A stretch of 60,420 nucleotides of DNA from Candidatus Bathyarchaeota archaeon. GTDB lineage: Archaea > Thermoproteota > Bathyarchaeia > TCS64. The notes under the pieces are model-generated. The model did not search any database, was not told where the DNA came from, and was given only the letters and a program-made list of their open reading frames with translations. Below, one piece after another: positions 48,410 through 55,885 of the stretch. The stretch spans positions 1-60,420 of the forward strand of contig JABIBQ010000071.1 of NCBI GenBank assembly GCA_018652685.1. The letters are read 5' to 3'. Every line of letters begins with the position of its first letter. The stretch's first letter is position 1. Both the position numbers and the translations under genes were made by a program.

Positions 48410-50070
48410 GATATCACAGTTGAAATGTTGAGAGTTAAGCATTTCCTCGATCTCTCTTACACTTTTATGTTAATATATTAACACCAACGCACAAACTATT
48501 GATATATTTAAGACTGATTTACAATTCATCGTTATTCTTAACTCTTGAGAGTAACCTTATATGCCTGGTATACAACTTTGTCAACGCTGGCTATGCTTGT
48601 TGGCAACGAGTTAAGAGGGGGAATGACTGAAATTGGGTGTTGAACAATACCAAAATATCATTGAAAAAACTTTTCAAGACCCTTTAACTGATTTATTATT
48701 GAAAAACAGCCAATTAACCCGAACACAGTTTGAAACACTTATTATTGATCTTCTTACGGACATAATGTCAGAAAATAAGGTTTCTTTTGACCAAAAAACT
48801 CTTTTTAGACAAAAAAGGGTGAGTAGAGGCTCCTTCAGTCGTTCATTAGCCCAAGCTCGTAAAAATGTTGTATCGAGTATTTTTACAGTGGTGTTGTTGA
48901 GTTATATGGGAGTGTTTAGTGAAAGACCGTTTGAAGAATATCAAGTTTTAGCTGAAAAACTAAAAGAATACGCTACATTGATTGAATCAGGAGAGTATAC
49001 TATAGATCCACAAAACCTTGTTAGATTAGAAGATGAATTGGTGTCTGGGATCAATGAATTGGCTTCACCCACAAGTATCAAAATGGTGTGATATCACATC
49101 ATATCACGTGATGTAGCGAGTTCACGAGCTGGCCTAGCGCTACTCCTCCATCCCCTGGAGGTACTTCTGTATTTCTGAGCACTGTAAAACCTTCATTTTC
49201 TAGTCTTTTACTGATGGTAGATGTAATATAGTTATTAACAAACACGCCTCCCGACAGTGCAACTTTAGTTATGCCTGTTGAATCTTGGAGCATTTTCACT
49301 ATGTCTGTAAGGCCATAAGCTAAATATTTTTGACTGTAAGCTGCTATATCTTCCTTTTTATGCTTATTTCTATTAATTAGTAGATTATACAAAACATTAG
49401 ACGTATTAAGTACATATTTATCGTCTATTAGTTGAATATCAGGTTCATATTTGATTGAATCCGGGTTACCCTTAGTGGCTATATCCTCCAACAACATTGC
49501 TGGCTCCCCTTCGTACGTCCTGTTGAGGGATGTACCGATGAGCGCGGAAACAGAGTCTAAAAATCTTCCTGCACTGGATGTCATAAGAACTCCCTCTCTT
49601 CGAGCGTGATTTAGTATGATGTCACGTTCTTGTGAGCCGTAAGGTAATGCCAAGTCTATGTGATTTAGTGTGATGTCACGAACTTCATCATCAGACACCC
49701 TTTTTGAGAGTGATGAAATCAACATCCTGTATGGGTAATATGCACACAAATCACCTCCCGGCATTGGGATATATTCCAACTGACCGACCCGTTTATAGTC
49801 TAAATATGTCGATTTTAGTACTTCTCCGCCCCAAATTTGCCCATCATCACCGTATCCGGCACCATCTAATGAGATTCCTAGAACTTCTTCGTCCTTGATA
49901 CCGTTTTCCGCCATTACTGATGTGATGTGGGCATGATGGTGCTGTGATTTTACAAGTGGAACTTCCATTTCCTGTGACATCACTTCGGCTATTTGTGATG
50001 TCATATAGCTTGGGTGGAGGTCACAGGCCATCACATCAGGATTACATGTGATATTCAAAAGATCACGCAT
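48061..50070. repeat. Dense dispersed GTGAT/ATCAC palindromic motifs (nadE-hypF block)
   Basis: Copies crowd into three patches: 48061-48225 (nine GTGAT or ATCAC), 49085-49113 and 49600-50070. Several are perfect palindromes, such as TGTGATATCACA (49088-49099) and ATCACGTGAT (49104-49113), or near-palindromes GTGATGTCAC (about 49618 and 49669). They run across three genes on both strands and are mostly inside codons. Such density is not seen elsewhere in the window. Confidence 0.6.
48633..49091 (+). CDS. Archaeal conserved protein of unknown function, 152 aa
   Basis: The start is TTG at 48633 with AGAGGGGGA 12 bases upstream; the ATG at 48623 is out of frame. The product is helical: LLKNSQLTRTQFETLIIDLLTD, a basic VSRGSFSRSLAQARKNVVSSIFTVVLLSYMGVF and a charged C-terminus. 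I recall similar 'SRGAFNRTL.QAR.N...SI.T..LLGYLG' proteins in Thaumarchaeota and related archaea, without a known role. The gene is markedly A/T-rich, and its stop codon lies inside the palindrome TGTGATATCACA (49088-49099), just 7 bp from the convergent hypF stop. Confidence 0.7.
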   Translation: MGVEQYQNIIEKTFQDPLTDLLLKNSQLTRTQFETLIIDLLTDIMSENKVSFDQKTLFRQKRVSRGSFSRSLAQARKNVVSSIFTVVLLSYMGVFSERPFEEYQVLAEKLKEYATLIESGEYTIDPQNLVRLEDELVSGINELASPTSIKMV

Positions 50071-51414
50071 GCTTTGAACTGCTTTTCTCTCTGACTCAAC
50101 GCCTTCAAGGCTCGTTATATCTCCCAAGTACTGCGTCATGAATGCCTTGCCGTTTATTCCAATTGCAGCAGCGTTCCTCAGTTCCGCTCCCAGTGCGATT
50201 CCACTTCCTTTTCTTATTGGGATATCGATTGGATCTGGCACGTATCCTCGCGATCTACGTGTGAACGCCGTTTTTCCATGTATAATTCGAAGGACCGAAT
50301 CATCTGACCTGTTGATAATATCCCGATTGTGAAGTAGGAAGTAATCTGCCAAACCTCCAAGTTCATCGAAAGCCGCTTCATTAGTTATTACCATAGGCAA
50401 TCCCCGCCTATTTCCGCTGGTCATGACCAATGCAGGTTCATTCAATCGCTTGAAAAGCATCGTTTGGATGCCTGTGTATGGCAACATCACGCCAACAGTG
50501 TTTAACCCAGGCGCCACCAAGTCCGAGATCACCCCATACCTCTTCCTCAGTATTACAACCGGTCTTTTCCAGTCACGAAGGTGCCTTTCCTCTAGTTTGT
50601 CAACTAATGCAAAAGACCTGATCGAGGTCAAATCGGGAGACATTAACGCGTATGGCTGATTTTTACGATCCTTCCTGCGTCTGAACTCCTCCAGAACATC
50701 GTCCTGGGTAGCTAGAGAAACAAGGTGTATGCCACCTATACCCTTGACTGCTACTATGTTACCTTCCATGAGAAGCTTTGCGGTTTCCGTGAACAGCTCC
50801 CTTGAATCGATAATTTCGCCTGACGCATTGTGGAGACTCATTTTGGGACCGCATATATGGCAAGTGATACCCTGGGCGTCGAACCGCCTGTCTAAGGGAT
50901 CATAGTAGTCCTTTTCGCAGTGCTTGCACATTGGGAAGTTGTGCATATGAGTCCTTTCTCTGTCATATGGGAGGGCTTTGACTGAGGTGAACCTCGGCCC
51001 ACACCAGGCACAGGCAGTGAACGGATACTCAAACCATCTTCCATTTGGGTCATCCATATCCCTGAGGCATTCCGGACAGATCCCGATGTCAGGTGGATAG
51101 ATGCCTGATGCAACTTTATCCGAGATCTTGCTCTTGTGGATTATAAAACGGTCAAACCTTCCCATGAATGGACTGAATGAGTGAAATAAGTCCTCAATAT
51201 CGGATACTTCCGGTGCATTTTCTCTCACATCCTTCAAGAACCTAGAGACCGCGTCCTCAGTACCCTCGACTATGATCTCGACGCCTGCGTCACCCAGATT
51301 GATAACATATCCCAGAAGACCGTTCCTGGCTGCCATCCTGTAGATGAAAGGCCTGAAACCGACGCCCTGTACCCTACCCGTAATATTGATCCTTGCCTCG
51401 ATCTTTCTGCTCAA
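49099..51414 (-). CDS. hypF: Carbamoyltransferase HypF ([NiFe] hydrogenase maturation)
   Basis: 771 residues, full length. Acylphosphatase domain (ITGRVQGVGFRPFIYRMA), two zinc fingers (CPECLRDMDD...CAWC and CKHCEKDY...CHIC), YrdC-like domain (VAVKGIGGIHLVS) and the HypF C-terminal domain with QHHHAHITSVMAENG and ISLDGAGYGDDGQIWGGEV are all present. It makes carbamoyl-AMP for the CN ligands of NiFe hydrogenases. No hydrogenase or other hyp gene is in the window. The start is TTG (51412-51414). The 3' half (49100-50070) is A/T-richer and motif-rich, while the 5' half resembles host DNA. Confidence 0.96.
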   Translation of the reverse strand: MSRKIEARINITGRVQGVGFRPFIYRMAARNGLLGYVINLGDAGVEIIVEGTEDAVSRFLKDVRENAPEVSDIEDLFHSFSPFMGRFDRFIIHKSKISDKVASGIYPPDIGICPECLRDMDDPNGRWFEYPFTACAWCGPRFTSVKALPYDRERTHMHNFPMCKHCEKDYYDPLDRRFDAQGITCHICGPKMSLHNASGEIIDSRELFTETAKLLMEGNIVAVKGIGGIHLVSLATQDDVLEEFRRRKDRKNQPYALMSPDLTSIRSFALVDKLEERHLRDWKRPVVILRKRYGVISDLVAPGLNTVGVMLPYTGIQTMLFKRLNEPALVMTSGNRRGLPMVITNEAAFDELGGLADYFLLHNRDIINRSDDSVLRIIHGKTAFTRRSRGYVPDPIDIPIRKGSGIALGAELRNAAAIGINGKAFMTQYLGDITSLEGVESERKAVQSMRDLLNITCNPDVMACDLHPSYMTSQIAEVMSQEMEVPLVKSQHHHAHITSVMAENGIKDEEVLGISLDGAGYGDDGQIWGGEVLKSTYLDYKRVGQLEYIPMPGGDLCAYYPYRMLISSLSKRVSDDEVRDITLNHIDLALPYGSQERDIILNHARREGVLMTSSAGRFLDSVSALIGTSLNRTYEGEPAMLLEDIATKGNPDSIKYEPDIQLIDDKYVLNTSNVLYNLLINRNKHKKEDIAAYSQKYLAYGLTDIVKMLQDSTGITKVALSGGVFVNNYITSTISKRLENEGFTVLRNTEVPPGDGGVALGQLVNSLHHVI

Positions 51415-51472
51415 GGGGTATCAAGTTCTAGTTGAACTGTGTAATTTAAACACTAAGTCTGGGAATTATCAT

Positions 51473-51488
51473 GTAAACAAGTAAACAA
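51473..51488. promoter_or_regulatory. Two tandem GTAAACAA octamers upstream of hypF and the HTH membrane gene
   Basis: Two perfect adjacent copies of GTAAACAA form part of the 127-bp divergent promoter region. The same octamer (as GTTTAC-type on the other strand) makes up the five-unit array at 55125-55164. This suggests a shared operator. A TATA-like TTTAAATTAC for hypF lies at 51441-51450. Confidence 0.5.
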
Positions 51489-51541
51489 TCCAAACAATAC
51501 GTGATTGTTTTCCTGATAACAAGTTAGAGAGGGTTCTCTGG

Positions 51542-52267
51542 ATGGTTCCCATTTTCGATACTGTAATTAACCTGTCTCCACCTGTCATATCAGGTAGCCC
51601 AATGGAAATGCTGTTCACCACTCTGTCCCTTTTCGTAGTTATGATTGTCGGCAGTTATATAGTGTACCAGCGAGTCGTTATGGCCCAAGCAGAGTACGAG
51701 GACAGCAAGGACTCTGTTCGGAACATCAGCTCAGGGTTCACTAGACAGGTCAAAAGGATGGAATCTGAGCTTGACAGAATTGAGCGTGAAGCACTACAGG
51801 CAAAATATATGGCCGGAGAGGCAATGAACTCGGGGCGCGGGACGGGAGACGCCACACTGAAGGGACTTGAGAAGGTTATGGAGCTCTCCGACCGAGTTGA
51901 CGGCATAGAAACAAGTATAGAGGCCATGCGTATGGATTTGCAAAAGATAGCCGCCCAACCGAGACTTGTCCAACAGACTCCCGTTACGGCCCCGATACCG
52001 GTAGAGGGAAATAATATCCTCCAGCAGATCACCGGGACCGAGATGGACGTCCTCAAAATGATAGTTGACCTTGGAGAAGGAACGGTGCCCGAGATTAAGG
52101 ACGTCATCAGCAAGACCCGTGAGCACACCGCTAGACTGCTTAAGAAGCTCTATGAAAAGGGCTTCATTGATAGGAACACTAGCAGCATGCCATACAGGTA
52201 CAGCATCCGCAAGGAGATCAGAGAACTTATCCTTGAGCAAAACGAGGATCTCTCACTAGGTCTCTAA
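51542..52267 (+). CDS. Membrane-anchored coiled-coil protein with C-terminal winged helix
   Basis: 241 residues. An N-terminal membrane helix (LFTTLSLFVVMIVGSYIVYQ) is followed by a long charged coiled coil (about residues 50-135), a Pro-rich linker, and a C-terminal winged helix (GTEMDVLKMIVDLGEGTVPEIKDVISKTREHTARLLKKLYEKGFIDRN). This layout, with the DNA-binding domain in the cytoplasm, suggests a membrane-tethered transcription regulator. It is likely co-transcribed with the cupin gene 32 bp downstream. Confidence 0.75.
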   Translation: MVPIFDTVINLSPPVISGSPMEMLFTTLSLFVVMIVGSYIVYQRVVMAQAEYEDSKDSVRNISSGFTRQVKRMESELDRIEREALQAKYMAGEAMNSGRGTGDATLKGLEKVMELSDRVDGIETSIEAMRMDLQKIAAQPRLVQQTPVTAPIPVEGNNILQQITGTEMDVLKMIVDLGEGTVPEIKDVISKTREHTARLLKKLYEKGFIDRNTSSMPYRYSIRKEIRELILEQNEDLSLGL

Positions 52268-54115: not shown

Positions 54116-54667
54116 TATCTTTTGCTGTAATATCCGCGAGTCTCTAAGCCTCTGGTATCCTGTCTTGGATAGCCTATTCCTCCAGGACGTTCTCAGCGAA
54201 CTCGACTAATCCACCTACTATCTCAAAGTAGCTTGATCGGTACTTCCTGATTTTAAGCTCGTTTATCCAATCTTATGCTTCGTACCCCCTCCACCTCTCC
54301 CTCTAAGCAGGGAAATGGTTTCTGGGCGCCTTCATGGTGGTATCCATGTCAGAGTACTTGGACATGTAGCCGATTATGGGCTTCCCGATCTCTCTGTAAA
54401 CATATTTCACGTCCACCACGATGAACCCGGCAAAAGCGGCACCGCCAAGGATGACGCCTTCCATCTCCCAGTCCTTGAGAATTGATTACAATGTTTATAC
54501 CAGCGTCATGGCATTCTACGATGATTGGGGCGAGCCTGAAGTCAAACAAATCTGATACATGTAAACGTGTACACCAAAGGCTTGTCTGTAGAGTAAGATC
54601 CCCTTCCTCTCGCTGGAATGGTTCGAAGCTTCTGTCTTGAACCCCTACTGCTACCCTAGAAACGATC
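54116..54667 (-). pseudogene. DUF99 family protein pseudogene
   Basis: The minus strand shows pieces of a DUF99 protein: VGVQDRSFEPFQREEGDL near the start, APIIVECHDAGINIV, then in another frame DWEMEGVILGGAAFAGFIVVDVKYVY, then IRKYRSSYFEIVGGLVEFAE and a tail PEA...RLADITAKD. Four stop codons interrupt the last part (TAG after HFPA, TAA after YEA, TAG after LEE, TAG after PEA) and at least one frameshift occurs near 54480. No promoter or start is obvious. DUF99 proteins are archaeal nuclease-fold (endonuclease V-related) proteins. It runs up to the DP1 stop. Confidence 0.8.
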
Positions 54668-55108
54668 TCAATACTTGTCGAGTTTTCCTTGTATTTTGCA
54701 CTTTATTAGGAATTGTGCATACGCTGCCCTTGGAACCTTAACTTTACCTGCCTTAACAGTTATTCTGGAGATTTGCTGTAAAGCGTTTTTATCAACGTCT
54801 TTCTCAAAAGTTAGGTTTCCATTACTCTCTATGGCGAAAGGACCCATTTCTATGGCTATTTCCTTTATATCCTCCTTGGATAGGCTTATTTCACCGTCAT
54901 CGTCGATGGCAAGAATGAATTCAGCGGAATTAGCTAGTACACCGCCATGTAAAACTGCGACAGATTCAGATCCATCATTGTTGATGTATTGATCAAGTGC
55001 CTTGTTAACTAAGTCAGCCACGTTTTTGCCATCTTTTTTGGCCATAGAGTAAACTTCAGTGTAAAGCTCGGTGTCTAATCCCCTTATGGCTACTGTTTTT
55101 CGTGGCAT
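54668..55108 (-). CDS. Ribbon-helix-helix transcription regulator
   Basis: 146 residues. The N-terminal 45 residues (TVAIRGLDTELYTEVYSMAKKDGKNVADLVNKALDQYI) form a CopG/MetJ-like ribbon-helix-helix: one strand with alternating residues and two helices. The remaining 100 residues are acidic beta-rich and unlike known domains, possibly a sensor. The gene sits under an array of five tandem octamers that overlaps its own TATA region, so autoregulation is likely. It is divergent from the winged-helix gene at 55223. Confidence 0.8.
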   Translation of the reverse strand: MPRKTVAIRGLDTELYTEVYSMAKKDGKNVADLVNKALDQYINNDGSESVAVLHGGVLANSAEFILAIDDDGEISLSKEDIKEIAIEMGPFAIESNGNLTFEKDVDKNALQQISRITVKAGKVKVPRAAYAQFLIKCKIQGKLDKY

Positions 55109-55124
55109 GTTAACTGTATCACCA

Positions 55125-55164
55125 GTTTATTTGTTTACAAGTTTACTTGTTATCAAGTATACTT
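55125..55164. promoter_or_regulatory. Operator: five tandem 8-bp repeats
   Basis: The 40 bp split exactly into GTTTATTT, GTTTACAA, GTTTACTT, GTTATCAA and GTATACTT, with consensus GTTTAC followed by TT or AA. Regular 8-bp phasing is known for ribbon-helix-helix (MetJ-like) operators. The array lies 17-56 bp upstream of the regulator gene and touches TATA-like sequences of both divergent genes (AAATAAAC on the minus strand; ACTTATAA at 55161-55168 on the plus strand). Confidence 0.7.
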
Positions 55165-55192
55165 ATAAGCATATCGGGGCTGTAAACATCTT

Positions 55193-55222: not shown

Positions 55223-55885
55223 GTGTCAAGCACGGTAGCCCTAGATAAAACAATAAACAAGAATAAAAATCGCTCGGTAGCCAAATCGGGTGTAAGGAAT
55301 GCTAACTTCGGCAAATATGTAGATGTATTCCGGCAATTATTACTTCTCAACGAGAAAAACGACCTTGCAACCACTCTGAAGAACATTCAGGAGCTCATGA
55401 GTTTTAGCGAAAAGATCTTCACTAGCGGCGCGGTCAGCGAAACCTTCCTCTACTTCTGTCTCCACGGTGCATCTACCGCGTGGGTGCTACAGTGTGAGCT
55501 GAACATGCCAGAGGCAACGGTTTACCGGGCCCTCAAGAGGTTACGTGCCATGAACGTCCTGGTCCCCGCTTTAAAGGTGAGCAAGGTCAAGCGCAGCAAG
55601 GGCGGTCCGAGGCCAACGGTATGGGCCATTGATACGGCTTCACCGGACGAGGTGAGTAGTGCATTGAAGCTTCACTACAAGATGTTGAGTCCAAAGTTCA
55701 GGGTAGCAGAGGAGGTCGCTCAGACTATCCTAGACGAGTTCCAGAAGGCAGGAAAGCCACTGGAGATCAACTACCGTGACATAATGGGTCAAGTAAAGAG
55801 CCTGAAGATCCCATTCAAGGGACCAGACATAGCAGAGCTGGCAGCCCAGTACCTCCACGAACGTGGAATCAAGGTCTGGCGATAA
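55223..55885 (+). CDS. Winged-helix DNA-binding protein
   Basis: 220 residues from GTG with GGAG 11 bases upstream. A basic N-terminus (NKNKNRSVAKSGVRN) precedes a winged-helix region around residues 90-125 (STAWVLQCELNMPEATVYRALKRLRAMNVLVPAL). A helix-rich C-terminus follows (PKFRVAEEVAQTILDEFQKAG). It looks like a transcription regulator or plasmid/virus replication-control protein. It shares the octamer-array intergenic region with the divergent ribbon-helix-helix gene. Confidence 0.7.
   Translation: MSSTVALDKTINKNKNRSVAKSGVRNANFGKYVDVFRQLLLLNEKNDLATTLKNIQELMSFSEKIFTSGAVSETFLYFCLHGASTAWVLQCELNMPEATVYRALKRLRAMNVLVPALKVSKVKRSKGGPRPTVWAIDTASPDEVSSALKLHYKMLSPKFRVAEEVAQTILDEFQKAGKPLEINYRDIMGQVKSLKIPFKGPDIAELAAQYLHERGIKVWR

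Follow-up and report, generated by a model that had tools for sequence, protein, structure and literature searches.

The window (the whole 60,420-nucleotide stretch of Candidatus Bathyarchaeota DNA analysed) carries a gene for a ribbon-helix-helix (RHH) regulator that is transcribed divergently from a gene for a winged-helix protein with a weak TrmB match. Five tandem octamers, GTTTATTT GTTTACAA GTTTACTT GTTATCAA GTATACTT, lie between the two, exactly where the first-pass annotation had placed them. When the units were rewritten as palindromic boxes of the form WGTNNACW (W-GT-NN-AC-W), the span shifted by one position and the boxes read AGTTTATT TGTTTACA AGTTTACT TGTTATCA AGTATACT on the plus strand. 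A conserved box position is mismatched in two of the five octamers (GTTTAT, GTTATC). The series continues in phase through a degenerate sixth unit to a perfect seventh box overlapping the RHH start codon; most members of the genus, as well as the sister genus g2, also have an in-phase box there. Tandem Repeats Finder reports the array as having a period of 16. The features of the locus are collected in Table 1.

Table 1. Features of the RHH locus and of the second site, in window coordinates.
Feature	Position	Strand	Basis
hypF, flanking the second operator	49099..51414	-	gene annotation by profile
Candidate second operator, three boxes in phase: AATTATCA (degenerate) TGTAAACA AGTAAACA	51464..51487	neutral	pattern search
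TM-wHTH regulator gene, flanking the second operator	51542..52267	+	profile; membrane helix from sequence only
Decayed endonuclease dU gene (DUF99, PF01949), directly downstream of the RHH gene	54119..54667	-	comparison with relatives
RHH regulator, 146 aa	54668..55108	-	sequence, profile searches, alignment, AlphaFold2 model
Perfect seventh in-phase box TGTTAACT, overlapping the RHH start codon	55108..55115	-	box scoring and alignment
Degenerate sixth in-phase unit GTATCACC	55116..55123	-	box scoring and orthologue alignment
Predicted tandem operator, five in-phase 8-bp palindromic boxes	55124..55163	-	array inspection, box scoring
Five octamers as first read	55125-55164		read from sequence
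Palindromic TATA-like box CTTATAAG (inferred assignment)	55162..55169	neutral	position and conservation
BRE-like element CGATATG (consensus CGATAAG)	55170..55176	-	25-orthologue alignment
Solitary box TGTAAACA, on the winged-helix side of the TATA-like box	55181..55188	neutral	sequence and alignment
Divergent winged-helix gene, weak TrmB match	55223..55885	+	profile match, neighbourhood comparison

The best five-box score in the window was 37, whereas the highest reached by any of thirty 60-kb Markov shuffles was 32. The whole 2.38-Mb genome was then searched for box patterns, with the reversed pattern as a control. The exact two-box pattern occurred at two sites only, namely this array and the promoter between hypF and the TM-wHTH gene (51472-51487), 3.6 kb apart; the control gave 0. 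This was the genome-wide survey for phased octamers that the first-pass annotation had proposed. A three-box pattern with up to three mismatches recovered this array, the site at 51464-51487 and one weak site, again with a control of 0. One-mismatch pairs elsewhere in the genome did not exceed the reversed-pattern control, giving no sign of a wider regulon. The array is beyond chance, since its five-box score lies above all of the shuffles and the pattern is rare in the whole genome with a reversed-pattern control of 0.

Alignment of the promoters of 25 order-level orthologues revealed a compact footprint. The TATA-like box was invariant in all 25, and every promoter had the same order: BRE-like element, TATA-like box, four octamers in strict 8-bp phase, start codon. 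The boxes at 55132-55163 are the counterparts of these four common octamers, in which the GT and AC were almost invariant. The BRE-like columns were conserved as C 24/25, G 24/25, A 25/25, T 22/25 and A 25/25, and the element orients transcription towards the RHH gene. The footprint was fixed in orthologues down to 48% protein identity, while the flanks were unconserved and most columns upstream of the BRE-like element held less than 0.5 bit. The array overlaps the TATA-like box by 2 bp and then runs downstream, between that box and the RHH start codon and over the predicted transcription start. It had been thought to cover TATA-like sites of both genes; instead, there is a single palindromic TATA-like box, situated at the edge of the array. 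The solitary box on the winged-helix side is conserved in the genus and stands 1 bp out of phase with the array.

The RHH protein comprises an N-terminal strand (TVAIRG), helices at residues 13-26 and 30-43, a disordered linker (45-61) and a C-terminal beta-beta-alpha repeat domain. Members of the RHH superfamily are dimers that read DNA through a two-stranded sheet. In the AlphaFold2 monomer both helices follow an N-terminal segment that was not modelled as a strand, with block mean pLDDT values of 71-81; the linker is floppy, and the C-terminal domain reaches a pLDDT of about 85-90. VapB was the sole RHH-type protein among the 50 Foldseek matches listed (probability 0.57). No profile family reached its curated cut-off for this protein: RHH_1 scored 17.3 bits against the 20.5 required, and Omega_Repress matched weakly in 7 of the 25 order-level members, with a best E of 0.001. 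A medium-confidence model and weak profile matches together point to an RHH protein. The C-terminal domain, which is previously undescribed, matched nothing in Pfam or NCBIfam, and no fold in the PDB at E <= 0.001. The gene is single copy in the order-level hosts, with the exception of one genome that has a distant second copy. Relatives of the window protein were absent from phage records, as were relatives of a phylum-level homologue from plasmid records. The Sulfolobales protein aCcr1 was considered as a possible relative.

Comparison of neighbourhoods was used to ask which gene the array accompanies. Within the order, the winged-helix gene adjoins the RHH gene, and the pair is divergent in every retrieved locus spanning both; beyond the order this adjacency is not conserved. 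A scan of ten proteins revealed that the genes flanking the RHH gene vary between genomes across the phylum. Three class-level orthologues (G236, G173 and G172; 34-41% identity) keep the TATA-like box and four octamers, although their loci lack all neighbours tested, among them the winged-helix and PolD small subunit genes. The first-pass annotation had named failure of the array to persist in close relatives as grounds against its reading; the array is kept beside the RHH gene in all 25 order-level and all three class-level orthologues. Its retention at orthologues with unrelated neighbours indicates that the array belongs to the RHH gene and not to the gene pair.

On the other side of the RHH gene, between it and the PolD small subunit gene, lies a decayed gene for endonuclease dU, disrupted by several in-frame stops and one or more frame changes. 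Endonuclease dU is an enzyme reported to cleave DNA at deoxyuridine (PMC11585767). In nearly all relatives an intact copy lies directly downstream on the RHH strand; it is apparently missing or decayed in G014, and its link to the RHH gene was not found beyond the order. The autoregulated unit in this order would be the RHH gene together with endonuclease dU. In the window genome the RHH gene and the array are intact though the endonuclease gene has decayed, which argues against the endonuclease as the sole reason for keeping the array. A possible RNA element, in the leader or in the gap downstream, was also considered and rejected, as there was no Rfam match and the gap is the decayed protein gene.

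The candidate second operator, in the interval that separates hypF from the TM-wHTH gene, follows a TTTAAA element at a distance of about 25 bp. Its two-box core was exact in five genomes (G000, the window's own genome, G001, G002, G006 and G007); G004 and G005 had degenerate forms, and genomes outside the genus had none. The TM-wHTH regulator has an apparent N-terminal membrane helix, a coiled coil and a MarR/TrmB-type winged helix; across the order its gene is conserved in a position upstream of that for the PolD small subunit. Beside the second operator, at 51483-51512, is an inverted repeat (AAACAATC...GATTGTTT) with related forms in other members of the genus, which may be a site for another regulator. 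The weak three-box site (L036, G000:C60:10994-11017) lies at the start of a gene for an HTH_24-type (winged-helix) regulator. It was not accepted as a further target because this gene is poorly conserved in the genus.

A homologue of the RHH protein was matched in 67 of the 398 genomes of the phylum. Here too, tandem boxes preceded the start codon and followed a TATA-like box; their phase was mostly 9 bp (GTAATAC/GTATTAC), and the array was unclear in 11 of 45 phylum-level homologues (about a quarter). Among the 73 homologues scored, the best phase was 8 bp in 30, 9 bp in 32 and unclear in 11. The 8-bp phase was present in 28/28 members examined from the order and from families f23 and f8; families f15 and f16, which are close to these, had 9-bp arrays, and the two remaining 8-bp calls were isolated and doubtful. 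Mapping of phase onto the protein tree required 3 changes, as compared with 20.9 for shuffled labels. Exact 9-bp pairs were found in 9 of 12 whole genomes, and in eight of these nine the sole site was the RHH gene's own promoter. The MetJ-like 8-bp phasing proposed by the first-pass annotation therefore describes this clade, where contiguous 8-bp palindromes do have MetJ-like geometry, but not the wider family, which is mostly 9 bp.

The 9-bp form would be the older, as judged from its spread over the phylum and not from a rooted tree. One order-level genome, G020, carries a distant RHH paralogue (L097, G020:C18:6756-7151) preceded by a 9-bp-phase array, indicating that both phases can coexist in one genome. 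Operators with longer GTATAC-type palindromes and mixed 8/9-bp spacing were found at L094 (G071) and L092 (G072), and are possible intermediates between the two phases. The idea that a single residue fixes the phase (A7 for 8 bp) was dropped, because S7 was found with both 8-bp and 9-bp arrays.

The operator stays with one gene while the neighbours change, and it scarcely occurs at other places in the genome. This argues that, very probably, the RHH gene at 54668 is autoregulated through the array. Dimers of its product would occupy the WGTNNACW boxes, one dimer per 8-bp palindrome, and adjacent dimers would pack side by side along the DNA in a cooperative manner. Once filled, the array would cover the DNA between a point just past the TATA-like box and the start codon, the expected transcription start included. 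Entry of the pre-initiation complex or of RNA polymerase would then be blocked, resulting in repression rather than activation. As RHH protein accumulated, transcription of its gene, and in most relatives also of endonuclease dU, would drop, a negative feedback. Any signal would presumably be read by the C-terminal domain.

The first-pass annotation had gone further, proposing that the adjacent RHH protein binds the array and controls both genes. Its first half stands, in that this protein is by far the likeliest binder; the second half fared less well, as the array is tied to the RHH gene alone and is kept where the locus has no winged-helix gene. Nevertheless, control of the winged-helix gene through the common TATA-like box is possible, and we give slightly less than an even chance to a reading in which RHH binding represses or switches both genes from there. 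That box is palindromic and, by eye, no second TATA-like box precedes the winged-helix start. The divergent arrangement of the pair in all retrieved order-level loci and the extra genus-level box on the winged-helix side are also consistent with it, whereas the conserved BRE-like element faces the RHH gene only and the array persists without the winged-helix gene. Such dual control may simply add to autoregulation, with which it is compatible. It is very unlikely that the winged-helix protein (55223) is itself the binder: its gene is adjacent to the array and conserved in the order, but orthologous RHH genes with no winged-helix gene nearby retain the array, and contiguous 8/9-bp palindromes are an RHH-type layout.

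Autoregulation was also weighed against two further readings. By comparison with the plasmid RHH protein omega, whose repeats form a centromere, the array might serve mainly as a chromosomal anchoring or partition site (parS-like). The weak Omega_Repress matches lean this way, as does the need of the omega system for four or more contiguous repeats (PMC9499535). We nonetheless regard partition as very unlikely, for no ParA-type gene was identified among the neighbours at the window locus, there is usually one site per genome, and the boxes keep a fixed place with respect to the start codon and the TATA-like box. Short AT-rich repeats form easily, and a functionless tandem repeat arising by chance or slippage was considered for that reason. 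The array exceeds both the shuffled and the reversed-pattern controls, and its phase and position are kept in all 28 clade members examined; this conservation refutes such an origin, to which we attach practically no probability.

Several known RHH systems resemble parts of this one. MetJ of Escherichia coli acts at promoters in which 8-bp palindromes (AGACGTCT) stand contiguously, two to five in a row (PMC12925634). The likeness to MetJ, a family with S-adenosylmethionine as co-repressor, is one of layout and not of membership: the box sequence differs, the Pfam families listed for the 25 members (E up to 1) did not include MetJ, the operator here lies almost only at the regulator's own gene, and relatives have 9-bp units. 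Omega (ParB-pSM) of pSM19035 likewise uses contiguous short repeats and is weakly similar in the DNA-binding strand and helices, but it has 7-bp units, functions in plasmid partition and has no such C-terminal domain; the present system is chromosomal, with a phase of 8 or 9 bp, and its profile matches are too weak to place it in the Omega repressor family (PF07764). Among archaeal viral RHH proteins, autorepression and oligomerization along DNA have been described, and SvtR represses its own gene, with proposed spreading along DNA into the TATA/BRE region (PMC5569661). The RHH fold of SvtR and AvtR is predicted for the present regulator too; these viral proteins differ in having degenerate, longer inverted sites and no phased octamer array. 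In the archaeon Halobacterium salinarum, the RHH protein CdrL also has an additional C-terminal domain and binds essentially a single site in the genome (PMC7439475). That domain is a double zinc ribbon, whereas no conserved cysteine pairs were found in our RHH orthologue alignment; CdrL is restricted to Halobacteria and its site precedes cdrS-ftsZ2, while homologues of the present protein occur in the window's own, non-haloarchaeal phylum. By analogy, the system appears to work like MetJ and omega, and is a member of neither. The novelty lies in a C-terminal domain not described before, in a dedicated operator present throughout the phylum and in a unit length that is 9 or 8 bp according to clade.

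On balance, we favour the view that these are phylum-wide archaeal RHH autorepressors with an undescribed C-terminal domain and an operator devoted almost only to their own gene, and that in this clade every box changed from 9 to 8 bp in concert with the protein, giving one orthologous family with two DNA packing registers. Tandem-box operators of RHH proteins have so far been known only as single cases. The present regulator can be traced, as one set of orthologues, over a phylum with its operator constantly in place and a unit of 9 or 8 bp, providing a natural series for testing how dimers bound cooperatively side by side cope with a shift in helical register. For the archaea concerned, it is a widespread regulator whose sole clear target, in most of the genomes tested, is predicted to be itself.
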